Assembly (NCBI GenBank): GCA_937891465.1
Contig: CALAHF010000045.1
Coordinates: 1-37,643 of the forward strand
Reading direction: 5' to 3'
From: an uncultured Verrucomicrobiales bacterium
GTDB taxonomy: Bacteria > Verrucomicrobiota > Verrucomicrobiia > Verrucomicrobiales > DEV007
DNA length: 37,643 nucleotides
The translations under genes were made by a program, and so were the position numbers. Below are positions 13,150 through 29,105 of the stretch, in pieces (position 1 is the stretch's first letter; each line of letters begins with the position of its first letter). Under the pieces are notes generated by a model that was not told the DNA's origin, searched no databases, and saw only the letters and a list, made by a program, of their open reading frames with translations.

Positions 13150-14820
13150 ATGCAGCGACGTTGTTCCCCAGAGAATGAACCGCGTGATTTCACAAACCCC
13201 TTTCCCCCAAAAAAAACAGTGAACTCCTATCTCCAATCTTTTTTAGGCGCTGTTCTTTGCCTGTATAGTATCCATGTGGGGGCGCAGGATAACTGGCATC
13301 AGGCAGCGGGACCGAATAGCAATTGGCAGGTCGAGGGGAAGCCGCCAATCGAGTGGAGTGTGACCCGTGATGAAAACATCCGTTGGCGCACACCGATGCC
13401 GGAGGCAGGAATGAGCAATGTCACAATTTGGGGTGACCGGGTTTTCGTGACAACTCATGTCCCGATCAAAACGCTTAAAGAGAAAGAGGCAGTGAAGGAT
13501 ATCATTGGGTTTTGCCTTGATTCCAACACAGGCGATATACTCTGGCAGGTGACGTTGCCGGGTAGTTTATACATTTCCCTGGCGGGTGGGTTTACTGATG
13601 GAACGGTTTTTGCACCGATCACGGACGGGGAACATGTTTGGTTTTTCAATCGCTGCGGTTCGATGGCTTGTTACGATTATGACGGCAACGAAGTCTGGAT
13701 ACGGGAGTGGACGCCGCGATTTAAGCATAACAACCGGCAAGCGGAACCTTTTCTCGTCGGTGATTCGATTCTCTATGTCGAAGTAGCCAATAAAGAGCTT
13801 GGAGCGAAGATCCAAAAGTGGGCTTCGCCCGGAAAGAAGTCGAAGGACGGGACGAAGGTGCCGGAGGATATCGACCCGAAGGAAGTATGGACGTATATCC
13901 ATGGGATCGACAAGCGAACAGGCGAAGTGCTTTGGCGTGAGGAGTTGGGGACTTCGGTGCACAACACTCCTGTTGTTGGAATGACTGCATCCGGGAAAAT
14001 GGCCGTTTCGCACGCGCGTGGTGGTCCACACGGAGCGCTCGAGAAACCATACGGTCAGAGCCTCACGAGCCTGGCCCCAGGCGAAGAGGGAAAGACGCTT
14101 TGGCAGCAGGATTTGAAGGGATACGACCCCTCATTCAGTTGTCATTGGAACGAGAAATATGTCTTTGGTTTTCAAGCGGGAAATCATCTCGTGCTTGATG
14201 CTGCGTCAGGAAAATTACTGCGTGAGCAACCACTTTATCAGAGCGCAACGCTGTGGAAGTTTGAGCCCGGAAAAAAAGATTGGGAGAAGCAAACCGGGGT
14301 TGCAATCAAAGCAGGAAAGGGCCATCCGAACACGAATCAAGCCAACCTTGCGACCGGTGATTGGCATTGGTTTTTATCTCACAATGTACATTATTTGGGA
14401 CGAGTGAACGTCGAAACGGGAGCAGTGGAATACCTTGAGTTACCTGCGCAGCTGATGGCGAGCACGGAAAATCGGGAAGCAGATCTTCGGCTTTGGAAGA
14501 AAGGGAATCCAAAGAATTTACCTCTCAATGCAGGCGGGTTTGCCGTGGGAAATAAGGGGCACAATAAAACAGGCTGGGGGCATATTTCGGCGGCTAGCCC
14601 AACCTTGGTTGGACGATATCTCTTTCTGCCTGTGGTTACGGGTACGGTCTATGTGATCGACACGAAGGTTGAGCAATTATCGCCTGAGTCGCTTGTTGCG
14701 GTGAATGATCTCGGCCTTGGTGGAGAAACCTGGACGCTTGCATCACTGACATACGCTAAGGGCCGCCTCTACGCGCACACCATGAAAGAGATCGTTTGCA
14801 TCGAAATACCTTCGGAATGA
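13150..14820 (+). CDS. Exported PQQ-like beta-propeller protein
   Basis: 556 residues from the ATG at 13150, which has AGGAA a few bases upstream. A GTG at 13219 (residue 24) is an alternative start, but it would lose the Lys pair that gives the signal sequence its positive end. The hydrophobic export segment is at about 27-45 ([15 protein letters not shown]). The mature part opens with the family-typical [12 protein letters not shown] and [12 protein letters not shown], followed by propeller blades ending in phrases like [16 protein letters not shown] and TGEVLWRE. Planctomycete and verrucomicrobial genomes carry many such proteins, annotated as PQQ-binding or BamB-like. An enzymatic role is not established by the sequence. 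It is followed 50 bp later by a ThuA-like gene. Confidence 0.85.
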
Positions 14821-14870
14821 ACTCGACAACGCATTGCAGAATTTTGAGGGAGACTAACAATTTCACAAAA

Positions 14871-15749
14871 ATGAAGAAATTATTCACCATTCTAACTGGA
14901 TTCCTTTTTTGCGCAGCCTCGCTGACGGCTCAGGAAAATAAAAAGCCACACGCGGTCATTGTTGTGGGAACACTCCATTATTCACCGGAGCTAACCATGC
15001 CGGTATTTGCGGAGGAATTGGAGCGATTCGGCTTTCGCACGACCGTCGTGATGGGCGAAGGAGATCCTGAAAAGAAAACAGAAAACGTTCTTCCCGGCCT
15101 TGAAGTGCTGGGGGATGCCGACGTCGTAATCTTCTTCACGCGGTTTCTGAAATTGCCGGATGTTGAGTGGCAGCCGATTGAGGATTATTTGAAATCGGGT
15201 AAACCGGTCATGGGAATGCGAACCGCGAATCACGCTTTCAAATACCCCAAAGGCCATCCGCGATTCAATTGGAATGATGACTTCGGTCGTCGTGCTCTCG
15301 GAACGCCTTACATCGTGCATCAAAGCAGCGCAACGGAGATCAAAGTCGATGAAAAGAACGCGACCCATCCGATCATGACACACGTGACCAAACGCGAATG
15401 GACTTCGCCGGGAACGCTCTATTTGGCGAAACTCGAACTGGGATGCGAAGTTCTCATCACAGGAAGCGGAACGGGTAGGGAACGACTTTTAAAGAAAGCG
15501 TTTGGTGAGATTCAAGTGAAGAAATTTGAAACGGCACCGGTTGCCTGGGCTTGGAAAAACGAGTGGGGCGGCAAGTCCTTTTTCACTTCGTTGGGACACC
15601 CGGGAGATTTCGCTGAAGAAGCGTTTGTGCGCATGTCGATCAATGCAGCGTGCTGGGCAGTCGACAAGCCTGTGCCTGGAGCTGATGAAGAAGTCACGAC
15701 CTGGCAGATCGAGCGTGTCGATAAAAAGCCGAAGAAACCAAAGAAGTAA
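14871..15749 (+). CDS. Secreted ThuA-like protein with Lys/Pro-rich tail
   Basis: 292 residues from the ATG at 14871, which begins a signal peptide (hydrophobic FTILTGFLFCAASL, cleavage near TAQ). The mature domain has the flavodoxin/glutamine-amidotransferase-like ThuA fold: HAVIVVGT at about 28, DADVVIFFTRFLKLP in the middle, GKPVMGMRTANHAF, then HPIMT, WTSPGTLYL and GHPGDF, which are typical of ThuA-like proteins. ThuA was named for trehalose utilisation, and some ThuA-like proteins take part in oxidation of sugar derivatives; the reaction here is unknown. The last ten residues are a cationic tail (KKPKKPKK). The same domain, with the same phrases, forms the N-terminus of the giant protein at 22113. 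Confidence 0.87.
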   Translation: MKKLFTILTGFLFCAASLTAQENKKPHAVIVVGTLHYSPELTMPVFAEELERFGFRTTVVMGEGDPEKKTENVLPGLEVLGDADVVIFFTRFLKLPDVEWQPIEDYLKSGKPVMGMRTANHAFKYPKGHPRFNWNDDFGRRALGTPYIVHQSSATEIKVDEKNATHPIMTHVTKREWTSPGTLYLAKLELGCEVLITGSGTGRERLLKKAFGEIQVKKFETAPVAWAWKNEWGGKSFFTSLGHPGDFAEEAFVRMSINAACWAVDKPVPGADEEVTTWQIERVDKKPKKPKK

Positions 15750-15756
15750 AAATTTT

Positions 15757-15799
15757 CGATGCAATAGGGTACGTTCGATGAACAGACCCTGTTGGTTCG
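15757..15799. repeat. 43-bp intergenic palindrome, copy B
   Basis: This copy lies between the ThuA-like and SGNH-like genes. CAATAGGGT (15762-15770) pairs with ACCCTGTTG (15786-15794), enclosing a smaller palindrome GTTC-gat-GAAC, with CGA/TCG at the outer ends. It ends 21 nt before the ATG at 15821 and is the best-formed copy of the four. Confidence 0.8.
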
Positions 15800-15820
15800 T
15801 AAACCCCTCTTTTGATACCA

Positions 15821-17050
15821 ATGAAAATTTACCGTCTTATCGCTTTTGCCTCGTTTCTCTTTGTGGGTATTAAGGCTTCAGCCGAGTCGCCCATTCGTCC
15901 CGGAGATCGTGTTGCAATTGTGGGTAATACTTTTGCTGACCAGCTTAGGGTTCATGGCTATTTGGAAAAGTTGCTGTTGCAGAATTCCGGAGCAAAACCC
16001 GTTTCAATCCGCAATCTCGGCTGGGGAGGGGACATGTTAACGGCACGGGATCGCCCGACCAATTTTCCGAGTGAGGCATCGACACTTATCGATCACCGAA
16101 CGGATGTGATTGTCGCCTGCTTTGGTTTTGGAGAATCGTTTGCAGGAACTGAGGGGCTGACTGATTTTAAAAGTGATCTCGAAGCTCTTATTGCTTCTCA
16201 CGCAGGAAAGAAATACAACGGGAAATCCGAGGTTCGCCTCATTCTGGTTTCCCCAATCGGCTACGAGGATTTGGGTGAGCTCACTCCGAACACGGAAAAG
16301 CGAAACGGTGAATTACAGGCGTATTCCCAGGCGATCGGCGATGTTGCAAAGGCAGCGAACCTTCCGTTCGTCGATCTTTTTGAACAATCACGCTACCTGA
16401 TGAGCGAGCCCGGCCCCGACTTGACCACCAACGGCGTCCATCTAAACACCTACGGCTATTGGGCGATCAGCAACGCATTTGCGAACCAACTTCTAAAAGC
16501 TGAGTCAAAGGAGCCTTGGCAAGTCACGCTGGATGCGAAAACGGCGAGCGGGGAAGCGAGCGGGGTTGAGCTTGCGAAAATCGAATCGAAAGATGGTTCA
16601 TTGAATCTGAAAGTGAAGGAGCTCTCCGCGCCGTCACTGCGTCCGCCAACGGATGAAACGTTGCCGCCTCAGCTCTCAATTCGGCGCGATACCCTGGCTG
16701 TGAAAAATCTGAAAGCAGGTTCCTATACCCTGACAGTCGACGGCAAAGAAGTCGTGTCTGCGAGCCACGCTGAGTGGGAGGTTGGCGTGCCGATTGATTC
16801 GTCGCCGGCTCATCTGGAAGCCGAAGCTTATCGAGAATTGGTAAATGATAAAAACCTCCAGTTTGTATACAGCTGGAAAGCTCTCAATCAGGTTCACATC
16901 GTGGGCGAGCGAAAGAGTTCGGCAAGCGGAAAGGCGCTACCTGCCGAAGTGATCAAGTTCAACGAAATCACGAAAGAGCGCGATAAAGCCCTGCAAAAAG
17001 GGATCGAGCTAAAGACGCGGGAATGGAAGCTGACTCCAACTGCCAGGTAA
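15821..17050 (+). CDS. Secreted SGNH/GDSL-like protein with altered active site
   Basis: 409 residues from the ATG at 15821; residues 1-21 are a signal peptide. Residues 28-230 have the SGNH-hydrolase layout: strand RVAIVGNTF where GDSL enzymes have GDSx, then RNLGWGGD, a FGFGESFAG block in place of GxND, and NGVHLNTYGY at 204-213 where DxxH is normal. Thus the nucleophile position reads Thr37 and the usual acid is Asn204, while His207 remains. It may be a non-hydrolytic binding module or use unusual chemistry. The region from about 240 to 409 is a beta-rich/helical extension ending in a Lys-rich helix. A palindromic repeat precedes it, and the dehydrogenase gene follows after 23 bp. A homologous module sits inside the 1600-residue protein, which kept a Ser at this position. 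Confidence 0.78.
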   Translation: MKIYRLIAFASFLFVGIKASAESPIRPGDRVAIVGNTFADQLRVHGYLEKLLLQNSGAKPVSIRNLGWGGDMLTARDRPTNFPSEASTLIDHRTDVIVACFGFGESFAGTEGLTDFKSDLEALIASHAGKKYNGKSEVRLILVSPIGYEDLGELTPNTEKRNGELQAYSQAIGDVAKAANLPFVDLFEQSRYLMSEPGPDLTTNGVHLNTYGYWAISNAFANQLLKAESKEPWQVTLDAKTASGEASGVELAKIESKDGSLNLKVKELSAPSLRPPTDETLPPQLSIRRDTLAVKNLKAGSYTLTVDGKEVVSASHAEWEVGVPIDSSPAHLEAEAYRELVNDKNLQFVYSWKALNQVHIVGERKSSASGKALPAEVIKFNEITKERDKALQKGIELKTREWKLTPTAR

Positions 17051-17073
17051 CCACTTTTACAATACAGACTGAT

Positions 17074-20000
17074 ATGAAATCTATTCTTCTTGTTGCCGCT
17101 GTGATCATGACTGGCAGTGCGATGGCAGCCGATGTCACCGGAATCAAAACCGCCAATCTAAAAGGCGCGGATATTGATTTGATGAACAATCATGATCCGG
17201 CTGCTGAACTCGAAAACTTCGAGTTTCTTCCCGGATATCAGGCCAATCTTTTTGCCTCGGACCCAATGCTGGCAAATCCGGTCCACATGCACTGGGATGC
17301 GAGAGGACGCCTGTGGGTTGCGTGTTCGTGGAGCTATCCGCAGCTAAAGCCCGGTGACGTTGCGAATGACAAAATCATCATTCTCGAAGATACCGACAAC
17401 GACGGGAAAGCTGATAAATCCACAGTGTTCGCTGACGGACTCTATTTACCAACCGGGATCGAACTCGCCAATGGAGGCTGCTATGTTGGCCAATCTCCGG
17501 ACGTGTTTTTCCTGAAAGATACAGACGGTGACGATGTTGCTGATGTAAAACAATTGGCTTTAACCGGATTCGGTATCGAAGACAGTCACCACTCGATTAG
17601 CGCGTGGCGTCGGGGGCCTGGCGGATGGATCTATTTCCAGGAGGGCATCTTTTTACACGCTCAGGTTGAGACGCAATATGGTGTTGTTAGGAATTTCGAC
17701 GGCGGCGTTTTCCAATTCAATCCGCGAACTCAGGAGTTGCGGGTTTTCTGCACAGGAACCGGCGGAAATCCCTGGGGCCACGTCTTCAATCGGTGGGGGC
17801 AATCCTTCATGGTGAACAATCCGAGAATTATGTATCTCTCTCCGGCCAGCGGAAACAGCGGCGAGAAGTTGCAGGTCAAATCTCTCATCAGCACCGAAAA
17901 GCAATGCGGAGGTGACTTGGCGACCGGGACCCATGTGGGTGATGACTTGCGCGGACAATTGATGAGCGGACGCTTTAAAAGCCGAGCCGTGATTCGCTAC
18001 GAGTTCATCGAGGATGGGGCGGGCTACAAGGCAAAGGTGCTCGCTCCGCTTATGACCTCTAAGCATCCAAACTTTCGTCCCGTTGATGTCAAAATGGGGC
18101 CGGACGGAGCGGTCTACGTTGCTGATTGGTATAACTCGATCATCAATCACGCCCAGCACGATTTCCGTGATCAGCGCCGCGATCACGACCATGGTCGGAT
18201 TTGGAGGATCACTCATAAAGAGCGTCCGCTGATCGAAAAACCCAAACTCCACGGCACCGAAATTCCGGAGTTGGTCGATCAGCTCAAAAGCCCGCAGGAC
18301 TGGACACGTCACCAGGCCAAAAATGTGCTGAGCGAGCGCGATCCTGATGAAGTTGTCTCGGCTTTGGAAGCGTGGGTTGAAAAACTTGATCCAGCTCTTC
18401 CTGATTACGACCATCATCTGGTGGAGGCAATGTGGGCGTGTCAGAATGTGGAGCGCTCCAGCGAAAAAATCCTCACAAAAGTTCTCGACGCGAAAGATGG
18501 AAATGCTCGATCGGCTGGTGCGCGCATCTTGCGATATTGGCATCAGGATATGTCCGACCCGATTGGGATGGTTGCCAAAGCTGCTGGCGATTCATTTCCC
18601 CGCACCCGGATGGAAGCTGTCTTGTCCGCCGGATTTATCCCGAAGGCTGAGGCTTTCGCCGCAGCGCTTCATGTGACCGATCATCCGAGTGATCTCGTGC
18701 TTGATCAGGCCCTGCCGCAAACCACTGCTGCGCTCGAAAAATATTGGCGTCCGGCAATGGAAGCCGGGACGCTGAAATTCGCTAAAGACTCACACCGGGA
18801 ATACATCGAAGCGAAAGCGGGAATTGGCTTTGAAAAACGCTTTGCTGATTTCCTCAAAAATTCGTCGCCTTATAGCAATGAGATCGCTGATGTGATGAAA
18901 CAATTTTCGACGGTTGCCACCAAACGTGAGCTTCGGATGGCCGTCGGTGCACTGGGCAATAAGAAAGGCCCGCCGGCAGACGAGATTTCGATTGCTCTCC
19001 TTGATGCACTAAAAAATAAGGCCAGTGCTAAACCTTCTAGAGGAATGAATCGCGCTATAGGTGGCTTGAAGCGACTCCTCAATCACAAGAATGAGGCCGT
19101 CGCGAGTCTCGCTGTAGAAAACCTCGGTGCATGGAAGGCACCCGAAGTGAGTCCGCAGTTACTGGGGCTTTTGAAGTCTGATACCAAGCCAATTTCAGTG
19201 AGACAATCTGCCGGAATTGCGCTGGCCAAATTGGGAGGAAATGTCGACGCGCTGAATGCTCTCGTTAACGGAACTGACATCCCAAGTCGCTATGCTGCGA
19301 TGCCCGGCTTCATTCTCGGCGATCTGGATGAAGGGATGACTTCCACTGTAAAATTGTTGAGTGAAGATCCCGGTGAAATGAATCCGGTTCCGCTGCTTCA
19401 AGCAATTCTAAAAAACCGGAGGGCGGACCGGAAACTTTCTGCCGTGCTCAAGGGCGCAGCGATTCATCCTGAGGTTGCTTCCCGCGTAAGTGAATTTCAC
19501 CGAACCACAGGGCAGTTTCCGAAATCTCTGGTGCCGTTTTTCGCATCCAGCGATGCGAGCGCTGGCTCTCTCTCCGCAAAACTCATCGCCGAAGATCAGG
19601 ACAAACTTACTGCGGATGTCGAAAAGCTTGGCGACCCACATCGCGGAGAAATGATCTATCGTCGCAAAGCGCTTGCCTGCACCGCTTGTCATGCGGTCGG
19701 GCTTGCAGGCCCAGCCATCGGCCCGAACCTTGTTGCCGTTGGTGCTGCGGCGTCAGCCGAATATATGGTCGAATCGATTCTGAAACCAAACGCGGCCATT
19801 GCCGAACACTATGAGAACCGACTCTTCACCTTGGCAGATGGCACGGTTCAGATGGGCGTCATCACGTTCAAGAGCGAGAAAGAAATCGTAGTTCGCGATT
19901 CAGCTCAGGGTGGCAAGGAAGTGAGAATTCCAGCCGCAGACATTGCGCGCGAGCAGGTCGTTCCTTCGCTCATGCCTGCAGGCCTTGCTGATCAACTAAA

Positions 20001-20469
20001 GAGCCGTCAGGAGTTTCTCGATTTGTCGAAGTTTCTATCCGTGTTAGGTCGTCCCGGTGATTTCGCGAATGATGAAAGTCCAGTTCTTCGCAAATGGCGA
20101 ATCGCGGGCGGAGCTGTCGACGCGGACGTAAAAGAGATCGCCACGTGGATGCCAGCCTATAGCAAAGTGGACGGAAGTTTGCCTGACGTCGAACTGAACC
20201 CTCTTGGCGATCATGTCTTTGTTCGCAGCGTGGTCGATATTCTCGTCGCAGGTCCAGTTACTTTAGATATCGAAAGCACGACTGGGATTCGTGTTTGGAA
20301 CAACGATACCGAGATCAAAGATCTTAGCGCACCGATTGATTTTGCCAAAGGAAAGGCGACGCTGACCTTTGCAATTGATCGGACCAGTCGCGGTGAAAAA
20401 GGACTTCGCGTCGAACTTAAATCAACGGCAGGTTCTCCTGCAAAGTATCAGCCAGAAGGCGGAATGTGA
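17074..20469 (+). CDS. PVC-type dehydrogenase propeller with HEAT repeats and cytochrome c domain
   Basis: 1131 residues from the ATG at 17074 (signal peptide ILLVAAVIMTGSAMA). Residues about 48-390 form the 'membrane-bound dehydrogenase' propeller of the TIGR02604 type: FLPGYQANLFASDP, DARGRLWVACSW, LEDTDNDGKADK and LKDTDGDDVAD (Asp-rich, calcium-loop-like), DSHHS and DHDHGRIWRI. About 400-800 is a helical HEAT-like array. A cytochrome c of the TIGR02603 type follows, with the heme site C869-T-A-C872-H873, continuing to about 995. A final beta-rich domain covers about 1006-1131. It probably oxidises a sugar or alcohol outside the cytoplasm and passes electrons to its heme. It forms a likely operon with the two preceding genes. 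The substrate is unknown. Confidence 0.88.
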   Translation: MKSILLVAAVIMTGSAMAADVTGIKTANLKGADIDLMNNHDPAAELENFEFLPGYQANLFASDPMLANPVHMHWDARGRLWVACSWSYPQLKPGDVANDKIIILEDTDNDGKADKSTVFADGLYLPTGIELANGGCYVGQSPDVFFLKDTDGDDVADVKQLALTGFGIEDSHHSISAWRRGPGGWIYFQEGIFLHAQVETQYGVVRNFDGGVFQFNPRTQELRVFCTGTGGNPWGHVFNRWGQSFMVNNPRIMYLSPASGNSGEKLQVKSLISTEKQCGGDLATGTHVGDDLRGQLMSGRFKSRAVIRYEFIEDGAGYKAKVLAPLMTSKHPNFRPVDVKMGPDGAVYVADWYNSIINHAQHDFRDQRRDHDHGRIWRITHKERPLIEKPKLHGTEIPELVDQLKSPQDWTRHQAKNVLSERDPDEVVSALEAWVEKLDPALPDYDHHLVEAMWACQNVERSSEKILTKVLDAKDGNARSAGARILRYWHQDMSDPIGMVAKAAGDSFPRTRMEAVLSAGFIPKAEAFAAALHVTDHPSDLVLDQALPQTTAALEKYWRPAMEAGTLKFAKDSHREYIEAKAGIGFEKRFADFLKNSSPYSNEIADVMKQFSTVATKRELRMAVGALGNKKGPPADEISIALLDALKNKASAKPSRGMNRAIGGLKRLLNHKNEAVASLAVENLGAWKAPEVSPQLLGLLKSDTKPISVRQSAGIALAKLGGNVDALNALVNGTDIPSRYAAMPGFILGDLDEGMTSTVKLLSEDPGEMNPVPLLQAILKNRRADRKLSAVLKGAAIHPEVASRVSEFHRTTGQFPKSLVPFFASSDASAGSLSAKLIAEDQDKLTADVEKLGDPHRGEMIYRRKALACTACHAVGLAGPAIGPNLVAVGAAASAEYMVESILKPNAAIAEHYENRLFTLADGTVQMGVITFKSEKEIVVRDSAQGGKEVRIPAADIAREQVVPSLMPAGLADQLKSRQEFLDLSKFLSVLGRPGDFANDESPVLRKWRIAGGAVDADVKEIATWMPAYSKVDGSLPDVELNPLGDHVFVRSVVDILVAGPVTLDIESTTGIRVWNNDTEIKDLSAPIDFAKGKATLTFAIDRTSRGEKGLRVELKSTAGSPAKYQPEGGM

Positions 20470-20526
20470 TCCGAAATCGATTCTGCAATCCTCTCAGTTA
20501 ATCCTACAATCAATTCGAATTAGAAA

Positions 20527-21975
20527 ATGGAAAACCACCTTGTGAAGCTCATTCTGGCTGTAATCTTCGCGTTTAGCGCAGGATTGAAGGCAAAAACTCC
20601 AAATGTCGTTGTCCTTTTGGGCGATGACCTCGGCTACATGGACATCGGAGCGAATAATCCAGATTGCTTTTACGATACTCCGAATATTGATCGGCTCGCC
20701 AAGTCGGGAATGCGATTCACCGATGGCTATGCGGCCAATCCGGTTTGTTCACCAACTCGATACAGCTTGCTCACGGGAAAATATCCAACTCGTGCCCGGG
20801 CGACCAATTTCTTTTCAGGTAAGCGGTCCGGAACATTTAATCCGGCTCCTTTGAATGATGTGATGCCGTTGGATGAAATCACCATCGCTCAGGCTCTCAA
20901 AGGAAAGGGGTATCATACCTTTTTCGCCGGGAAATGGCACCTTGGTCACAGTGAAGAATACTTCCCTCAGAATCGTGGCTTTGATGTCAATATCGGAGGT
21001 TGGACCAGAGGAGGTCCCTATACCGGGAAGAAATATTTTGCGCCGTTCAAAAATCCGCAAATGAAGGAAGAAAGCCCCGAGGGCGACCATTTGCCTGCAC
21101 GGCTCGCACGCGATACCGCCTCATTTATTGAGGAGCATAAAGCAGAACCGTTTCTCAATTACCTTTCGTTTTACTCAGTCCACACTCCATTGATGGGGCG
21201 TCCCGACTTGGTCAAAAAGTATAAAGAAAAGGCGGCCTCAATTGCTGGAAAAGAATTCGCTCAGGAAGAACAAGTATTTGGGAACAAACCCCGTGAAGCT
21301 AGAGTCCTCCAAAAACACGCCGTCTACGCCGCGATGGTTGAAGCCATGGATGAGGCCGTTGGCACCGTTCTTGATCAGCTCGAACAATCAGGAGTCGCCG
21401 ATAACACGGTCGTGATTTTCACTTCCGATAACGGAGGGCTTTCGACTTCCGAAGGCTCCCCGACAAGCAACCTCCCGCTGCGTGGCGGAAAAGGCTGGGT
21501 ATATGAAGGCGGCATTCGCGAGCCATGGATTATCCGCTATCCCGGAGTGACTAAGGCCGGTTCCCTTAGTGATGAATTGATTTGTTCAATCGATCTGTAT
21601 CCGACTGTGGCTGCGGCGGCAGGCATTTCGGTCGATCACCCTATCGACGGGATTAATCTGATGCCGGCGCTAAAGGGCGAAAAGCTGGATCGTCAGTCTT
21701 TGTTTTGGCACTATCCCCACTACAGCAATTAGGGCGGAATCCCCGGAGGGGCGATCCGTGAAGGGAATTTCAAGCTTTTCGAAAGATACGAGGATGGCCG
21801 GGTTCATCTCTATGATTTGAAAGCCGATATCGGAGAGCAGAACGACCTCGCTAGCAAACACCCGGAGCGTGTTCAAGAAATGCACAAACGTCTCTATGAT
21901 TGGTATAAAGAAGTCGACGCACAATTCCACCAGGAAAAAGACGGCAAAAAACCGTGGGCTCCGTTCGCCGAATAA
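20527..21975 (+). pseudogene. Secreted sulfatase interrupted by an in-frame amber codon
   Basis: A sulfatase frame of 483 codons with a TAG at codon 402 (21730-21732). Before it: signal peptide 1-22, LLGDDLGYMD at 30-39, formylglycine motif C74-S-P-T-R78, AGKWHLGH, SVHTPL, TSDNGG and EGGIREP, so the catalytic core is complete. After the TAG the same frame continues for 80 codons of normal sulfatase C-terminus (GGIPGGAIREGNFKLFERYEDGR..., then HLYDLKAD) to a TAA at 21973. In relatives the residue between HYSN and GGIPGGAIR is usually Gln, so a single CAG-to-TAG change explains it. The product is either a 401-residue protein without its C-terminal subdomain, or full-length through suppression. 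A sequencing error is possible. TAG is an ordinary stop at 8384-8386. Confidence 0.85.
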
Positions 21976-22112
21976 CGGCGAACGAAGTGAGTGATTACAA
22001 ATATAGCGAAAGAACTCGATTCATAGAATGAATTCCAGGTCCGATCGATGAGAGCACATTTCGCAATTGCATTTTTCCTTCTCGATATAGTCCAAATTCA
22101 AATCCATTCCCG

Positions 22113-25100
22113 ATGAAAACATTTTCTGTCCTAACTATTATTTTCCTCGTTCTGTTCACCGGCAACTTCGTTCGGGCGGACGACAAACCTCATGCCGTCA
22201 TCGTCGTGGGAACGCATCACTATTCGCCGGAGAAATCGATGCCGGAGTTTGCGGCTGAGTTGGAGCGGCTTGGTTTTCAAACAACTGTTATTAATCCTGA
22301 TTGGGATCCCGAGAAGGACAAGCGCGGTTTGCCGGGGCTGGAAGCTTTGGAGAAAGCGGATGTGGGAATTTTCTTCGTTCGATTTTTGAAACTGGAAGAC
22401 GATCAGCTCAAGCACATCACGAAATTCCTTGAATCGGGAAAACCCGTCGTGTGTTTCCGAACGAGCACGCATGCGTTTAATTATCCGGAAGACCATCCGA
22501 ATGTTGGGCTTAATATGTCGTTCGGGCGCGAAGCTTTCGGTACGCCGTATCTGATTCATCTGGCTGGTAAGACACAGGTCAAGCCAGCTGAGAAAGCCGG
22601 CGAACATCCCGTTTTGACCGGTGTGAAAACGACCAATTGGGCGTCGCCGGGAACGCTTTACCTCACAAAATTGGAAGACGGAGCCAAACCGCTTCTGATG
22701 GGCACTGGAAAATCGGGCAAAGCCGGAGTTCGGACAAATCAGTTCGGCACGCACGATCTGAAAGCGGAAATGACGGACACGATTGCGTGGACGTGGGAAA
22801 ATCAGTGGGGTGGTCGAGTTTTTGGCACTTCATTGGGACACACGGGAGATTTTGCGGTCCCTGAATCGATGCGGGTGATGGTGAATGGCGTTTTCTGGGC
22901 AGCGGGAGAAAAAGTTCCTGATTCGAAAATCGAGGTGCGGACTTTCGGTTCTCAAGCAGCCGCAAAGCCGAAGCGAAAAGCTGCTCCTGCAAAAAAAGCG
23001 AGCGTTGAACCGAAGGCTGAGCTGGCAGAAAAGGTTACGCTGTTCTACGGAAACTCGATGGTGGAACGTCTGTTGGAAGACGGGGAAATGGAAGCGCGGC
23101 TTCAAATCGCCCACCCTGATGAGCGACTGAAAATTCGCAGTCTTGCCTGGACCGGAGACGAGGTGGGTAATCGCCTGCGCCTCGAGGGCTATGCCCAGCA
23201 CATGAAAAATCTGCTCGCAAAGTGGCCGGCTGAAACGGTCGTGCTAGGCTACGGGTTGAACGAATCTTTTGCTGGAAAAGAGGGGCTCGCGGATTTTGAA
23301 CAGCAATACCGTCAGCATCTGAAACAGCTTTCTTTGACGCACCCGGGCTCACGGGTTGCCTTCCTTTCGCCAATCGCAATCGAAGGCGGCACCGATGAGC
23401 AGAATGAAAACGTAAAGCGTTATAGCGATGTGGTCGCGAAGCTGGCGGCCGAGAATAAAGCTGATTTTGTGGATTTATTTTCACCAACGCTGGAGGCCTA
23501 TGAGAAATCTGATGCGAAACTGACCGCGCAGGGAATTCATCTGAACGACGCGGGAAATGAAATCATCGCGAAGATCGTCGCAGTGGCTCTCGGCGGCACT
23601 TCCGAACCGGACGCCGCGCACCTCCGGGAAGTCAAGCTCGCCTCTGCCGCGAAACACCAACGAGTCGCCGAAGTGGTTCGGCCAAAAAACGGCGTCGTCT
23701 ATTTCGGTGTGCGCGCTCGTCCTGAGGAATACGCCGATGAAATGCCGCGCTACCACGAAATGATTCGTCTGGCTGAAGCTATCGTTCATGATCTCGCCAA
23801 AAACCCTCAGTCAAAATTTGCGGCACAGGAAAAACCTTCACTTCCGCCGATGGCAGAAAAACCAGGCCGGGATGACGGGGACCGGACAGGCATTATCAAA
23901 AGTGTTGCTGAGCAGCAAGCCGAGTTCAAAGTGGCTGACGGATACGAAGTGAATCTTTTCGCATCCGAAGAGCAATTTCCCGAGTTGAGAAATCCGGTTC
24001 AGATTGCTTTTGATGGGCGCGGGCGATTGTGGGTTGTGACCATGCCGTCGTTTCCGCACACCGTTCCCGGCCTGACGCCGCCGGATAAAATTCTAATTCT
24101 CGAAGATACGGATCACGATGGGAAAGCCGACAAAGTGACGACTTACATGGAAGGCCTCGACGCGCTCGACGGCATCGCGTTTCACCACAAGGGCGTGATC
24201 ATTTCGGAGCAGCCTCGGCTCTGGATGACGCATGATTCGGACGGCGACGATCGCACTGACGCCAAAGAAGAATTGCTTCGCGGCATTGATGTGACCGATT
24301 CCCATCACGGCGGAATGATTGCGACCAATCCGTTCGGTGACGTAATTTTTTGCGACGGCGTGTTTCATCGATCACAACTGGAAACGCCCTTCGGAGTCCA
24401 TCGCGGCATCGATGCTACGACCTATCGCCTCGATCCGAACACGGGACGAATCAATACCGAGTGGCAACACAACACGCCGAATCCCTGGAACGTCACTTTT
24501 GATCGTTGGGGGAATATTTTCCAAATGTATGGCGACGGCGGTAGTCACGATGGTGCCGCTCTGATCTGGACGCCGTTTGGGAGTTACCATCCTTACAACT
24601 ACGCGGAGATCGGCAAGTATGGAAAAGGCTCCGGTTTTGCCGCGATCTCCAGCCCGAATTTCCCCGATGAATATCAAGCGGGAATCGCGTCAGCGTCGCT
24701 TCTAGGTCGCTACGCGGTAAATCTCACGAAGTTCGATTACAGCCACGGATTGATCAAACACGAAGGCCCGCTGACAATTCTCTCATCGCCGAATGCAGCG
24801 TTTCGCCCAGCGGATGTTGAATTCGGATTGGACGGAGCGCTCTACGTTTCTGATTTCTGCAGCCCAATCATCGGCCACGCTCAGCATCCGATGCGTTCGC
24901 CGCACTGGGATCATGACTACGGTCGAATTTGGCGAGTTGTTCACACCGAAAAACCTCTTGTAAAAGATTGGCCAACGATTGAAGGCGCTGAAACGACCAA
25001 ACTTTGCGAGCTCCTGACGCATTCCCAAGACCTCGTTCGGAAGCATGCGAGGATCGAGCTTCGCAAAAAAGGCGAAGAAGGAATCAAGGCGGTCGATCGG

Positions 25101-26915
25101 TGGATCGCTGATTTCGACCAAAGCGACGAAAGTTTTGATCAAGCTGTTCTTGAAGCGATTTTCGTAAACGGTGGGCTTGGGGAAGCTCGACCTGAGCTTA
25201 TCGATACACTCCTCAAATCTGACGATCCCATGTTTCGCGGAGCTGCTGTCGATGCCATTCGATTGCTCGCCGACAAACTCGAGAACGTGAAAGAGAAGCT
25301 CACGACGATGGCGGCCGATCCTCACCCACGAGTTCAGCTGAAAGTCATCGGAGCTATCGCCCATCTTCGTCAGACCGACGCGTCGATGGAGTCTGTGCTC
25401 GCAGCAATTACTTCCGAGGAAAAATCAATTCAGGATTCTCTCGCCACAATGACTTTAGGAACGGAGCCGAAAAAAGGCCGTAGCGTTCCCGTTCTCGAAG
25501 TCGCTCCCGATTCCGAAGTCACGCACTGGATGCGCTACGATTCGAACGGTGGCGGGAATCCTGTGATTCACACCACGAAGAAACCCTCCGGCGGCACGTT
25601 GCATACGTTTCGGACATTTGTCACTTCGGAAACCGCCCGGCCAGCGACGCTCGCGCTCAATCACAAATGTCTCGACGTCAAAGTGAACGACATTTTGAAG
25701 TTCAGTCAGAACTCGAATTGGAGTAGCGATCAGCAAATTCACATCGATCTCGAAGCCGGACAAAACGTTATCGAAATCGAATTGATGAAGCCAAAACTCG
25801 GGCGGGGATCAGGCTCGCTCCCTAGGGTGTATCTCTACGATTCCGTCGGCCAACCGCTCACTGGAGTCGACTACCTCGCCGACAGCGATCGGCTTCAAAA
25901 TTTCGCGACTGCTCACGAAAAAAGGCTCAAAGAACGCGGGCTTGTCTTGCGAGTTCAAGCAGCTCCGGGACTTCAGTTTGCACCAAAAGAATTGAGAGTC
26001 AGCCCCGGCGTCAAAGTCCGTCTCGTTTTTAGGAATCCCGACATCATGCAGCACAACTTTCTTCTGTTGAAGCCGGGCAGCGTGGATGAAATCGGAGTCC
26101 TCGCTGATCAAATGGCAGGTGATCCAGACGCGATCAAAAAAGCTTACGTCCCGGAGTCAGACAAAATCCTCGTCGCTTCAAAATTGCTCGGCCCAAATGA
26201 CAGTGAAGAACTCGTTTTCACTGCGCCGGAAGATCCCGGTGATTACCCTTACATTTGCACATTTCCCGGTCACTGGCGCATCATGCAGGGTGTGCTGGTT
26301 GTGAAAAAACAAGCGGCAAAGGTGATGGACGAACCTAAGCGGAAAGCGAAACCTAAGAACGTCGCCAAAGCGGTGACGGTGAAGATCGGAGACGGCGTAG
26401 TTTTTGAAACAGCTTCGTCGGCAGATGGCTTTAACAAGCTTTTGCCAGCCACGAAGAATCCTCGAAAGAGCACGGCTAACACAAAGACCAATAACGATCC
26501 AATTGCGACGCTCACTGATGGAAAATTGGTCGAGGGGTTTGGGCCTATTTTTGGCAACGGTGTCACTAACGGAAGTTATAAAATGGATCTTGGAAAATCA
26601 CAGTCCGTGAAATCGATCACGAGTTGGGCTTTCAATAAATCCGGCAAACGCGGCGGGCAGAAAATCAGCCTATTCGGAAGCAGCGTTGAAAGTGATCCAG
26701 GTTGGGACGTAACCGACGCCTCGAAATTCAAGCCGCTCGGCGTTATCGGGACTGACGGTCAAAAGCTCGGTGAATTCACGGCTTTATCACGGCGTTCGGC
26801 AGATGGAAAAACGCTCGGAAAATTCCGTTGGATCGTGTGGCAGGTTTCACCGGTAACAAAGCTTGGCGAGAATACGGCGTTTCAGGAACTGTCAGTTGAA
26901 ACAGTTGGTCAGTGA
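22113..26915 (+). CDS. Giant fusion: ThuA - SGNH - PVC dehydrogenase - HEAT - azurin-like cupredoxin - C-terminal beta domain
   Basis: 1600 residues from the ATG at 22113. The signal peptide is 1-22. A ThuA-like domain spans about 25-282 (HAVIVVGTHHYSPE, FFVRFLKLEDD, GHTGDF). A Lys/Ala/Pro-rich linker is at 283-306. An SGNH-like domain spans about 307-505, with G313-N-S315 as possible nucleophile and His476 in QGIHLN. The dehydrogenase propeller is at about 600-948 (YEVNLFASEE, LEDTDHDGKADK, DSHHGG, DHDYGRIWRV). HEAT repeats follow to about 1110, then a beta domain at about 1130-1232. A cupredoxin covers about 1278-1400 with His1314, Cys1382, His1387 and Met1391, the azurin ligand set and spacing. 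A second Lys/Pro linker precedes a C-terminal discoidin-like domain (about 1420-1600). The modules repeat the preceding operon's gene order. It has no cytochrome c domain. Confidence 0.9.
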   Translation: MKTFSVLTIIFLVLFTGNFVRADDKPHAVIVVGTHHYSPEKSMPEFAAELERLGFQTTVINPDWDPEKDKRGLPGLEALEKADVGIFFVRFLKLEDDQLKHITKFLESGKPVVCFRTSTHAFNYPEDHPNVGLNMSFGREAFGTPYLIHLAGKTQVKPAEKAGEHPVLTGVKTTNWASPGTLYLTKLEDGAKPLLMGTGKSGKAGVRTNQFGTHDLKAEMTDTIAWTWENQWGGRVFGTSLGHTGDFAVPESMRVMVNGVFWAAGEKVPDSKIEVRTFGSQAAAKPKRKAAPAKKASVEPKAELAEKVTLFYGNSMVERLLEDGEMEARLQIAHPDERLKIRSLAWTGDEVGNRLRLEGYAQHMKNLLAKWPAETVVLGYGLNESFAGKEGLADFEQQYRQHLKQLSLTHPGSRVAFLSPIAIEGGTDEQNENVKRYSDVVAKLAAENKADFVDLFSPTLEAYEKSDAKLTAQGIHLNDAGNEIIAKIVAVALGGTSEPDAAHLREVKLASAAKHQRVAEVVRPKNGVVYFGVRARPEEYADEMPRYHEMIRLAEAIVHDLAKNPQSKFAAQEKPSLPPMAEKPGRDDGDRTGIIKSVAEQQAEFKVADGYEVNLFASEEQFPELRNPVQIAFDGRGRLWVVTMPSFPHTVPGLTPPDKILILEDTDHDGKADKVTTYMEGLDALDGIAFHHKGVIISEQPRLWMTHDSDGDDRTDAKEELLRGIDVTDSHHGGMIATNPFGDVIFCDGVFHRSQLETPFGVHRGIDATTYRLDPNTGRINTEWQHNTPNPWNVTFDRWGNIFQMYGDGGSHDGAALIWTPFGSYHPYNYAEIGKYGKGSGFAAISSPNFPDEYQAGIASASLLGRYAVNLTKFDYSHGLIKHEGPLTILSSPNAAFRPADVEFGLDGALYVSDFCSPIIGHAQHPMRSPHWDHDYGRIWRVVHTEKPLVKDWPTIEGAETTKLCELLTHSQDLVRKHARIELRKKGEEGIKAVDRWIADFDQSDESFDQAVLEAIFVNGGLGEARPELIDTLLKSDDPMFRGAAVDAIRLLADKLENVKEKLTTMAADPHPRVQLKVIGAIAHLRQTDASMESVLAAITSEEKSIQDSLATMTLGTEPKKGRSVPVLEVAPDSEVTHWMRYDSNGGGNPVIHTTKKPSGGTLHTFRTFVTSETARPATLALNHKCLDVKVNDILKFSQNSNWSSDQQIHIDLEAGQNVIEIELMKPKLGRGSGSLPRVYLYDSVGQPLTGVDYLADSDRLQNFATAHEKRLKERGLVLRVQAAPGLQFAPKELRVSPGVKVRLVFRNPDIMQHNFLLLKPGSVDEIGVLADQMAGDPDAIKKAYVPESDKILVASKLLGPNDSEELVFTAPEDPGDYPYICTFPGHWRIMQGVLVVKKQAAKVMDEPKRKAKPKNVAKAVTVKIGDGVVFETASSADGFNKLLPATKNPRKSTANTKTNNDPIATLTDGKLVEGFGPIFGNGVTNGSYKMDLGKSQSVKSITSWAFNKSGKRGGQKISLFGSSVESDPGWDVTDASKFKPLGVIGTDGQKLGEFTALSRRSADGKTLGKFRWIVWQVSPVTKLGENTAFQELSVETVGQ

Positions 26916-27029
26916 ATGAGTTTCATATTTTTGCCGACAAACGCAGATGTGGATTCGTGATATTTTCTAGTGCGTTCCGGCGATGCAGAAAAGGTTGCAG
27001 AAATCGATTCGGCCAGCTTCAATGCACGC

Positions 27030-27896
27030 ATGCCGAATCCATGGACTGGGGTGGGAAACCCTTACACGAGAACTGAAGTCATTGAGCGCCTCCGCGATAC
27101 GCTGGCAAAAGGGGAGCCCATCATCGCTGCCGGAGCGGGCACTGGAATCAGTGCCAAGTTTATTGAAAAAGGCGGCGCGGATCTGATCATTATTTATAAC
27201 TCAGGTCGCTACCGCATGATGGGCCATGGCTCGATTGCTGGCATGATGGGCTATGGAGATGCGAACGCTGTTGCGATGGAAATCGGCGAATTCGAAGTGC
27301 TTCCAGTCGTGAAAGAAATTCCTGTGATTTGCGGTGTTCATTGTACCGACCCGCGACGTCGCATGTGGCACTGGCTACAGAAGGTGAAAGACATGGGTTT
27401 TTCAGGAATGAACAATTTCCCGACTCACTCGATTATTGATGGCGATTTCCGCCAGCAGCTCGAAGAGACCGGAATGGGAACCGACAAAGAAGTCGAGACC
27501 GTCGCGCTTTCTCGGAAGATGGATATTTTCTCGATTGTTTACGTGGCCTCTCCAGCGGAAGCCAAAGCGATGGCTGAAGCCGGAGCCGATGTGATCATAG
27601 CGCATGTGGGCTGCACAGTCGGCGGTTCGATCGGAGTCACGGATGCTGCGATGTCATTGGATGATGCAGCAGTTGCAACTCAGGCGATCATTGATGCCGG
27701 AAATTCGGTGAGAAAAGATGTCATTTATCTTTCTCACGGCGGACCAATTTTGACACCTGCGAATGCGGCTTTTATCAATGAGAAAACCGATGCGTCAGGT
27801 TTCGTTGGCGCTTCCAGCCTTGAGCGGATGGCTGTTGAAGAGTCCCTCACAAATCTAACGAAGGAATTCAAATCAATTCCTGTTAAGCGCTCTTAA
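27030..27896 (+). CDS. TIM-barrel PEP-hydrolase-like (Tm-1 C-terminal type) protein
   Basis: 288 residues from the ATG at 27030, chosen because relatives begin with MPNPWTGxGNPYTR; a GTG at 26970 would add 20 unusual residues. The sequence fits the phosphoenolpyruvate-hydrolase-like TIM-barrel family (PF09370 type): GEPIIAAGAGTGISAKF, DLIIIYNSGRYRM, GYGDANAVAME, GVHCTDPRR, FSGMNNFPT, LEETGMGTDKEVE, and SHGGPILTP plus GFVGASSLER for phosphate binding near the C-terminus. It is cytosolic, unlike most genes around it. It is 12 bp upstream of the Tm-1-like gene. In plant Tm-1 proteins an equivalent barrel is fused behind the ATP-binding part. The reaction in bacteria is not settled as far as I know. 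Confidence 0.88.
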   Translation: MPNPWTGVGNPYTRTEVIERLRDTLAKGEPIIAAGAGTGISAKFIEKGGADLIIIYNSGRYRMMGHGSIAGMMGYGDANAVAMEIGEFEVLPVVKEIPVICGVHCTDPRRRMWHWLQKVKDMGFSGMNNFPTHSIIDGDFRQQLEETGMGTDKEVETVALSRKMDIFSIVYVASPAEAKAMAEAGADVIIAHVGCTVGGSIGVTDAAMSLDDAAVATQAIIDAGNSVRKDVIYLSHGGPILTPANAAFINEKTDASGFVGASSLERMAVEESLTNLTKEFKSIPVKRS

Positions 27897-27908
27897 AATA
27901 TTTCTACT

Positions 27909-29105
27909 ATGGCAACCATTGCAGTCATCGGAACGCTCGACTCCAAAGGTCACGAGCATCAATTTGTAGCAGACCAAATCCGCTCGGCAGGGCATTCTGC
28001 CCTTTTGGTTGATGTGGGAACATTGGGCGAAACTCAGGTCGCACCAGACATCAAGCGTGACGAAATTCTTGAAGTGGCCGGATTGAAATTCGGTGAAGCG
28101 GAGGACCGTGGAGAGCGAGTCGGAGTTATGGCGAAGGCCTTGCCGATCTATCTCAATAAGCTAGTCGAAGATGGAAAGATCGACGGAGTGATTTCGCTCG
28201 GTGGCGGAGGCGGAACGGCCATTTCTACAGCAGGAATGCGGGCGCTTCCGATCGGTTTTCCGAAGCTGATGGTCAGCACACTGGCGAGTGGAAACACAGC
28301 TCATTACGTTGGCACGAATGACATCGTCATGTTTCCAAGCATCGTGGACGTGGCCGGTCTGAATCAGATTTCAAAAACGATTTTTGCGCGCGCAGCGGGT
28401 GCCATTTGCGGCATGGCGAAGGCAAAGACATCGATTGTCGAAGAAAAGCCGATCATTGTCGCCAGCATGTTCGGGAACACGACCGAGTGTGTCGATCACG
28501 CTCGCAAGATTCTCGAAGAGAAAGGCTACGAAGTGCTCGTTTTTCCCGCGACCGGAACTGGCGGCAAGACGATGGAATCGCTCATCGAAAGCGGTATGGT
28601 CAAAGGCGTTCTTGATATCACGACAACGGAGTGGGCTGATGAATTAACCGGCGCAACGTTGAGCGCAGGGCCAGCTCGACTGGAAGCGACTGGGAAAGCT
28701 GGGATTCCCGCGATCGTTACACCGGGTTGTCTCGACATGGCGAATTTTGGCGAGCCGGATACCGTTCCTGAAAAATACGAAGGGCGGAATTTTTATCACC
28801 ACAATCCGCAGGTCACCCTGATGCGGACGAATGCAGAAGAATGTTCTCAGCTCGGGAAGATTCTGGCAGAAAAAGTGAATGCCTACACCGCGCCGGTCAC
28901 GGTTCTCTTGCCGGCAAAGGCGATCAGTATCATTAGCGCCGAAGGTCAACCGTTTTACGATGCAGAAGCAGATGCGGCGTTATTTTCCGCGATCAAAGAA
29001 AACCTGTTCGATTCGGTCGAACTCATCGAAGTCGATGCAGAAATCAACGCGCCAGAATTTTCAAACGCCTGCGCCGAAGCGCTTCTTAAAAATCTCGCTG
29101 GCTGA
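27909..29105 (+). CDS. Tm-1-like ATP-binding domain protein (UPF0261)
   Basis: 398 residues, start ATG 12 bp after the preceding stop. It begins MATIAVIGTLDSKGHE, the signature opening of UPF0261/Tm-1-like proteins. Other family phrases are VDVGTLG, GDGVISLGGGGG-like glycine run at about 98-104 (ISLGGGGGTA), KLMVSTLASGNTAHYVGTNDI, PSIVDVAGLNQ, SMFGNTTECVDHAR, VFPATGTGGKTME and VTPGCLDMANFG. The N-terminal half of the tomato Tm-1 resistance protein is homologous and binds ATP. No signal peptide, so cytosolic. Together with the barrel gene it gives a two-gene equivalent of the Tm-1 polypeptide. Its place in a sulfatase region suggests processing of a small carboxylic or sugar acid, but this is inference. 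Confidence 0.92.
   Translation: MATIAVIGTLDSKGHEHQFVADQIRSAGHSALLVDVGTLGETQVAPDIKRDEILEVAGLKFGEAEDRGERVGVMAKALPIYLNKLVEDGKIDGVISLGGGGGTAISTAGMRALPIGFPKLMVSTLASGNTAHYVGTNDIVMFPSIVDVAGLNQISKTIFARAAGAICGMAKAKTSIVEEKPIIVASMFGNTTECVDHARKILEEKGYEVLVFPATGTGGKTMESLIESGMVKGVLDITTTEWADELTGATLSAGPARLEATGKAGIPAIVTPGCLDMANFGEPDTVPEKYEGRNFYHHNPQVTLMRTNAEECSQLGKILAEKVNAYTAPVTVLLPAKAISIISAEGQPFYDAEADAALFSAIKENLFDSVELIEVDAEINAPEFSNACAEALLKNLAG

Follow-up and report, generated by a model that had tools for sequence, protein, structure and literature searches.

Two described enzymes bear on the proteins treated in this work. The pyranose dehydrogenase of Coprinopsis cinerea (CcPDH) oxidizes L-fucose (PMC4332668), and its residues His363 and Asn431, the latter next to Arg430, lie at pyrroloquinoline quinone (PQQ) (PMC6881789). 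Lac161_ORF7 (AGW45552), encoded on a Chthoniobacter cosmid and made in Escherichia coli, was reported to be a beta-galactosidase that releases glucose from lactose with a Km of 1.8 mM (PMC5342196); it is the only purified protein of the TIGR02604-HEAT-cytochrome c type that we found. The open-licence full texts of PubMed Central (PMC; preprints excluded) yielded no settled function for the TIGR02604 family and no paper on the fusions described below. Here, we analyze a stretch of 37,643 nucleotides (the window) that makes up contig 45 (CALAHF010000045.1) of a 5.97-Mb genome of an uncultured Verrucomicrobiales bacterium in 229 contigs. Three co-directed genes, for a ThuA-like protein, an SGNH-fold protein, and a dehydrogenase (the split system), precede a sulfatase gene and, beyond it, a gene for a 1600-residue protein (the fusion), whose closest named relative is from an uncultured Verrucomicrobiales and in which the same modules are joined. 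We find that the two systems carry different redox domains, heme c in one and type-1 copper in the other, and that they are probably parallel assemblies from shared parts.

The split genes are homologous to the modules of the fusion and stand in the same order, as a sequence-only reading of this DNA had proposed with coordinates that proved right throughout. In BLASTP alignments, 136 of 278 positions of the ThuA modules (49%; E 5e-82), 56 of 195 of the SGNH modules (29%; E 5e-17), and 153 of 497 of the dehydrogenase modules (31%; E 8e-72) are identical, which far exceeds chance; across the whole module the two ThuAs are 51% identical. Pfam and NCBIfam models for ThuA, GDSL_2, and DUF7133/TIGR02604 exceed their cut-offs in both sets in identical order (for TIGR02604, 122.2 bits, exceeded by both dehydrogenases). 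All four proteins have, by eye, a signal-peptide-like N-terminus; the frame of the split ThuA also opens at an in-frame TTG at 14796, and the signal-peptide-like stretch begins at the ATG at 14871. Past about residue 527 of the split dehydrogenase the homology fades, and the tails beyond this point differ, a feature that had escaped the first reading: a c-type cytochrome closes the split protein, whereas the tail of the fusion carries an azurin/auracyanin-like copper domain. Neither a CxxCH motif nor, at E 0.01, a TIGR02603 match is present in the fusion, and the cupredoxin and a further C-terminal domain stand in that place. This cupredoxin is under the cut-off of the NCBIfam azurin model TIGR02695 (35.7 versus 105.1 bits); its ligands, His, Cys, His, and Met, do not vary in any of the 27 rows, and in the model of the fused core (27 rows; predicted local distance difference test score [pLDDT] 84; predicted template modeling score [pTM] 0.75) its fold matches auracyanin 6kol with a template modeling score of 0.86 by target length. 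The proposal that the two systems use different electron acceptors is borne out at the level of domains.

Among the relatives, the heme and copper carriers exclude each other and are exchanged. Across 117 distinct proteins (stop codon in view, duplicates removed), the tail behind the propeller holds a copper motif in 39, a CxxCH motif in 74, both in none, and neither in four; without the stop filter the figures for 119 proteins are 39, 74, 0, and 6. The numbers for each kind of carrier reflect the search queries, and the mutual exclusion is the finding. One of the four proteins without a carrier adjoins, at L058:122-4517 (loci are designated by L numbers), a ThuA gene that bears the heme domain (ThuA-cytochrome), which indicates that the carrier can move between parts. 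On the quick 80-row propeller tree, which omits 33 of the 113 propellers, a single clade of copper propellers is rejected (p 4e-75; 33 copper rows), and the fewest changes of carrier are three over 77 labelled rows; in these tree tests L022 was labelled copper on a weak match (19 bits). The copper protein L043 and the heme protein L072 are sisters with propellers 76% identical.

Table 1. Coordinates of the two systems and of the gene between them (positions in the window; residues are those of the respective protein)
Feature	Positions	Strand	Evidence
Split ThuA-like protein, N-terminus signal-peptide-like	14871..15749	+	PF06283 57.7 bits (cut-off 33.4)
Split SGNH-fold protein	15821..17050	+	PF13472 42.1 bits (cut-off 32.9)
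Split dehydrogenase: six-bladed propeller (~17182-18270), HEAT repeats, c-type cytochrome domain	17074..20469	+	TIGR02604 261 bits, TIGR02603 87.3 bits, HEAT_2
Heme c domain of split dehydrogenase, residues 853-989, one CxxCH	19630..20040	+	TIGR02603 (cut-off 68.15)
Sulfatase between the split and fused systems	20527..21975	+	PF00884 194.7 bits, part before TAG
Fusion, 1600 aa: ThuA, linker, SGNH, propeller, HEAT, sandwich, cupredoxin, C-terminal domain	22113..26915	+	
Fused ThuA module, residues 26-273	22188..22931	+	PF06283 43.5 bits; own hidden Markov model (HMM)
Fused SGNH module, residues 290-564	22980..23804	+	PF13472 48.3 bits
Fused propeller module, residues 599-955	23907..24977	+	TIGR02604 162.4 bits; AF2 model, VIA-align to AA12 Z 27.3
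Beta-sandwich of no known family between HEAT and cupredoxin, residues 1121-1261	25473..25895	+	Own HMM; strands in model
Azurin/auracyanin-like cupredoxin, residues 1279-1398	25947..26306	+	PF00127 35.7 bits; ligands His, Cys, His, Met
C-terminal domain of no known family, residues 1418-1597	26364..26903	+	Own HMM

Identical order within 12 kb might suggest that simple joining of genes produced the fusion out of the neighboring operon, or the reverse, and the ThuA modules lend this some support. In a tree of 48 rows, the split and fused ThuAs of the window fall in one clade of 10 (support 100/100) whose next relatives are far. Within this clade, the split ThuA groups with L154 and L155 (86/91) and the fused one with L031, L032, and L158 (100/98); these groupings rule out a recent exchange of ThuA between the two neighbors, and the two seem to have diverged before these genera arose. 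A clade restricted to the split ThuAs and the fused ones of the window type, with stand-alone ones excluded, was neither found nor rejected (p 0.112). The ThuAs of the fusions L034 and L035 lie in another clade, and placing all six ThuAs of the fusion type together is rejected by the approximately unbiased (AU) test (p 2.7e-6). The window fusion and L034 are 31% identical in ThuA, 63% in SGNH, 80% in the propeller, 71% in the cupredoxin, and 68% in the C-terminal domain, which, together with the tree, indicates that ThuA, the front module, was exchanged while the core stayed conserved.

The other modules speak against simple joining. The SGNH tree (68 rows) sets the split and fused systems apart, and so does a quick propeller tree of all 113 rows. 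They are also separated in a careful, rooted propeller tree of 51 rows (50 of the 113 and L226), in which the split propeller belongs with SGNH|propeller-heme operons (97/92; vertical strokes separate genes, hyphens domains) and the fusion is in another group (98/90, then 95/90). On the 80-row tree, a single grouping of split with fused propellers was not rejected by the AU test (p 0.185), and this is the caveat to rejecting an operon-derived fusion, as we do on the module trees. Further, among the 19 rows of the fusion's propeller clade, ThuA is present in six, 10 have a complete N-terminus without ThuA, including L002 of the same genus, an SGNH-propeller-copper protein, and three (L004, L038, and L039) are cut at the N-terminus and are uninformative on ThuA. 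Finally, L034 has the cluster found upstream of the window fusion, with a sulfatase (87% identical), an esterase (80%), and a PQQ-repeat protein (87%), and lacks the split operon; the operon region (~13150-20469) therefore looks inserted into such a cluster, or elsewhere lost from it. Along L034:1173-14833 compared with window positions 6006-26915, the upstream neighbors are 80 to 87% identical and the fusions only 58%, so that parts of the cluster seem to differ in history. Taken together, simple joining in either direction is very improbable. The fusion probably did not descend from the neighboring operon, its SGNH-propeller-copper core lying on another branch. The case is real and informative, but the operon and fusion are probably not the simple Rosetta pair, split and fused forms of one ancestor, suggested by the title of the sequence-only reading: the module trees it had called for confirm close kinship of the ThuAs and place the SGNH and propeller cores on different, well-supported branches. 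The case has gained strength in that the same parts were assembled several times, and lost some in that the neighbors are probably not split and fused copies of one thing.

Repeated assembly is evident from the wider survey, which covered 40 regions around TIGR02604 matches of the genome and relatives of the fusion, the split dehydrogenase, and ThuA; architectures were read with HMMs built from the window modules, which can miss remote members. The genome holds 66 TIGR02604 matches in about 50 places, weak ones included, and 24 ThuA matches, of which six are in one open frame with a TIGR02604 match and a further two apparently belong to an operon that contains such a match. Common layouts are SGNH|propeller-heme and, in one gene, SGNH-propeller-copper; a core of the latter kind is also present in the cultured relative Roseibacillus persicicus (L037). 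The full set in one gene was seen with heme in seven proteins, including L072 of the window's genome, and with copper in five (the window, L031, L032, L034, and L035); in L158 the corresponding frame is broken. This last gene, at L158:7469-13227 (G019), encodes sulfatase-ThuA-SGNH-propeller-copper and is interrupted by stops or a frameshift within the SGNH part. The three-gene ThuA|SGNH|propeller-heme operon occurs in the window, L154, L155, and L226, and a ThuA-propeller-copper layout in Bacteroidota, at eight loci of L045-L053. Wherever it was seen with a propeller, ThuA stands in front. The operon at L226:6701-11032, from another family (f6), has overlapping genes, an SGNH that is very degenerate, and, missed by the cytochrome HMM, a tail with CxxCH; its propeller is not kin to that of the window operon (AU p 0.0026 against one clade), and the operon is an independent assembly. 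ThuA changes 10 times on the propeller tree, in a count that takes loci with short flanks as lacking it, and no ThuA was found upstream in 19 of the 20 fetched loci of the SGNH|propeller-heme branch (the sequence of L222 is too short for a decision); 12 of these 20 showed a detectable SGNH. The earlier view that the modules belong together has fared well, since ThuA and SGNH are joined repeatedly to TIGR02604 propellers on separate branches, as operon or as fusion, and this recurrence supports joint work. At L164:7461-12248, about 490 residues without a Pfam match at E 0.001 precede the SGNH module.

The SGNH module of this branch has lost its esterase triad. The split protein has Thr for the nucleophile Ser (GNTF), Asn for the triad Asp, and Gly for the Asn of block III, and keeps the His; the fused one has Gln for Asp and retains Ser and His. 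An active esterase is ruled out for the split protein by these motif columns; the fused module, with its Ser and His, may yet be one. Over 68 modules, the nucleophile column holds Ser in 16, Thr in 33, Gly in 17, and Ala in one, with one gap, and Ser, Asp, and His occur together in none of the 67 with this column filled (T/N/H in the split and S/Q/H in the fused protein of the window); in the heme fusions with ThuA, both Ser and His are gone, and in most cases Asp as well. The row with the gap belongs to L085, which has its propeller on a distant branch and retains GDS, GMND, and DGVH in the full protein; GDS is also retained by the SGNH next to L055 (L202, at a distance of 149 bases from the dehydrogenase). 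As a control, 30 of the 41 SGNH matches in the genome were scanned for the pattern Ser..GxN..DxxH, which was found in 13 of 20 unlinked and two of 10 dehydrogenase-linked proteins; of these two, L196 (the gene of L085) is real, and the match in L195, which is the fusion itself, depends on a DAAH that lies outside the domain. We regard loss of the triad, as judged from these columns, as a trait of the window's branch that does not extend to all linked SGNH proteins. The most likely role of a module that persists without the triad is binding or docking; it is also possible that an active ancestral esterase belonged to the kit and then decayed.

The propeller has six blades of the AA12/Asd/sGDH type (Z 23.6-27.3 for the model of the fusion; sGDH being soluble glucose dehydrogenase). 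With VIA-align, the fused propeller model matches AA12 6i1q of Trichoderma reesei at Z 27.3 (root mean square deviation 2.5 over 282), the pyranose dehydrogenase 6jt5 of Coprinopsis at Z 26.7, and sGDH 1qbi at Z 24.2; fold matches of the fusion also include the ThuA-like 4e5v and, for its SGNH, an Axe2-like fold. In hhalign, the second His of the DSHH motif and the NPW motif align with the invariant His and the Asn-Pro of the genome's PF07995 proteins, and within two other TIGR02604 proteins of the genome the PF07995 cut-off itself is exceeded. By this alignment, the second His would correspond to the catalytic His144 of sGDH and His363 of CcPDH, and the Asn to Asn431.

The computed results on homology, order, exchange of carrier and of ThuA, loss of the SGNH triad, and propeller fold can be accommodated in a single scheme, in which both systems are modular periplasmic redox machines for sugars of sulfated glycans with a built-in carrier, and we hold this scheme with moderate confidence. 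The propeller, related to PQQ sugar dehydrogenases, would oxidize a sugar or glycoside, and the electrons would pass to the C-terminal carrier of the same protein, heme c in the split system or type-1 copper in the fusion. ThuA might act on, or present, the oxidized (keto-) sugar, and the triad-less SGNH, placed between ThuA and propeller, might be there for binding or docking. The signal-peptide-like N-termini point to the periplasm, and the sulfatases around both systems, with the sulfatase and fucosidase-like fusions of relatives, were counted for sulfated glycans as the source of the substrate.

Several observations weigh against this scheme. The hhalign probability for the His and Asn-Pro alignment is only 57; neither window propeller has a PF07995 match at E 0.01; and where CcPDH has Arg430, just ahead of the conserved Asn, the fusion has Pro and the split protein Gly. 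A search of the genome for PqqC gave no match, and its control gave none either. The HMMs used to collect the SGNH rows were seeded from the window modules, a choice that favors such degenerate ones, and linked SGNH proteins of distant branches can look active. Sulfatases are abundant in such genomes, so the neighborhood is weak evidence of substrate. The beta-galactosidase activity of Lac161_ORF7 and the propeller fold both point to sugars and disagree on the reaction. That activity is a ground for regarding the propeller as a glycoside-cleaving enzyme, a hydrolase or lyase without net dehydrogenation, whose carrier would have a regulatory role or take part in a transient oxidation in the course of cleavage, and the sulfatase and fucosidase-like fusions would also suit an enzyme of saccharification. 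Yet exactly one redox carrier is present in 113 of the 117 complete relatives, heme is exchanged for copper without both being lost, and the best-matching solved folds are sugar dehydrogenases; this alternative is possible, if unlikely. A further reading, respiratory glycan cleavage, is speculative and rather doubtful as it stands: the propeller would oxidize the glycoside in place (e.g., at C3), electrons would leave via heme or copper, and ThuA, with the dead esterase as sugar holder, would finish cleavage of the keto-glycoside. If true, this would reconcile the dehydrogenase fold with the activity of Lac161_ORF7, and glycan breakdown would be wired to respiration, with the carrier set by iron or copper supply and with sulfatases and glycosidases as added domains.

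The surroundings of the two systems bear on a further explanation, namely that the modules are merely co-inherited in sulfatase-rich clusters without sharing substrates, the fusion being a by-product of frequent rearrangement. The window contains six sulfatase genes, and sulfatases also lie next downstream of the split operons of L154 and L155. Among relatives of the fusion, a sulfatase is fused in front (L158:10375-13227) or behind (L035:9818-16549), a sulfatase and a sialate-esterase-like domain are added in a protein of 3037 residues (L038:2-9112), and a fucosidase-like domain in another (L036:2005-7467); the C-terminal domain of the fusion recurs in a sulfatase of L034 (as read by Pfam). 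Rearrangement, domain swapping, and sulfatase fusions have been described in Planctomycetes (PMC4807772), ThuA is easily gained, lost, or exchanged, and its linker is disordered in the ThuA-SGNH-propeller model (pTM 0.65; linker pLDDT <50 at model residues 262-283, protein residues 282-303). The last three points favor mere co-inheritance; the order and choice of partners, which recur on separate branches both as operon and as fusion, make it improbable.

The placement of split and fused systems side by side was seen in none of nine relatives of the fusion with long flanks. The sulfatase gene between them has an in-frame TAG at 21730-21732, past which three-frame translations show sulfatase-like sequence in the same frame, uninterrupted up to 21975; this may be a nonsense mutation, an assembly error, or readthrough. 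A scan of 20400-22300 gave four promoter-like sites (shuffles 1.7, standard deviation [sd] 1.4) and four terminator-like ones (2.6, sd 1.6), which we do not draw on. Directly downstream of the fusion, at 26970-29105, lie PEP_hydrolase-like and UPF0261 genes. Two genes upstream of the L031 fusion, at L031:3304-7275, a sulfatase is fused to planctomycete cytochrome domains (PSCyt1, PSD3, PSD5, PSD4, PSCyt3, and PSD2), and freshwater Verrucomicrobia have been reported to carry other cytochrome families, of unknown function, beside sulfatases (PMC5615132).

More generally, the exchange of heme for copper in close proteins, the repeated recruitment of ThuA, and the triad-less SGNH are testable handles on the function of the TIGR02604 family. 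If the favored scheme of sugar oxidation by the propeller is true, the breakdown of sulfated glycans in Verrucomicrobia would be tied to periplasmic respiration.

Compared with known systems, the split protein has the full set of the PVC-type heme-binding CxxCH proteins (TIGR02604, HEAT, and TIGR02603), from which the fusion departs in having a cupredoxin for the heme domain and ThuA and SGNH in front. Lac161_ORF7 shares the TIGR02604-HEAT-cytochrome c layout of the split dehydrogenase (PMC5342196), and differs in its reported activity. The soluble glucose dehydrogenase/Asd family (PF07995) resembles the window proteins in fold and, apparently, in His position and Asn-Pro motif; unlike it, they add HEAT and carrier domains and lack a match to the family model. 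The cupredoxin is like auracyanin and azurin in fold and ligands, although here it is a domain of a large enzyme. AA12, as represented by the pyranose dehydrogenase of C. cinerea, is among the best-matching propeller folds and likewise a sugar dehydrogenase with a built-in electron carrier (PMC6881789); its carrier, however, is an N-terminal cytochrome b domain (AA8; heme b), and its Arg430 position is not kept in the window.

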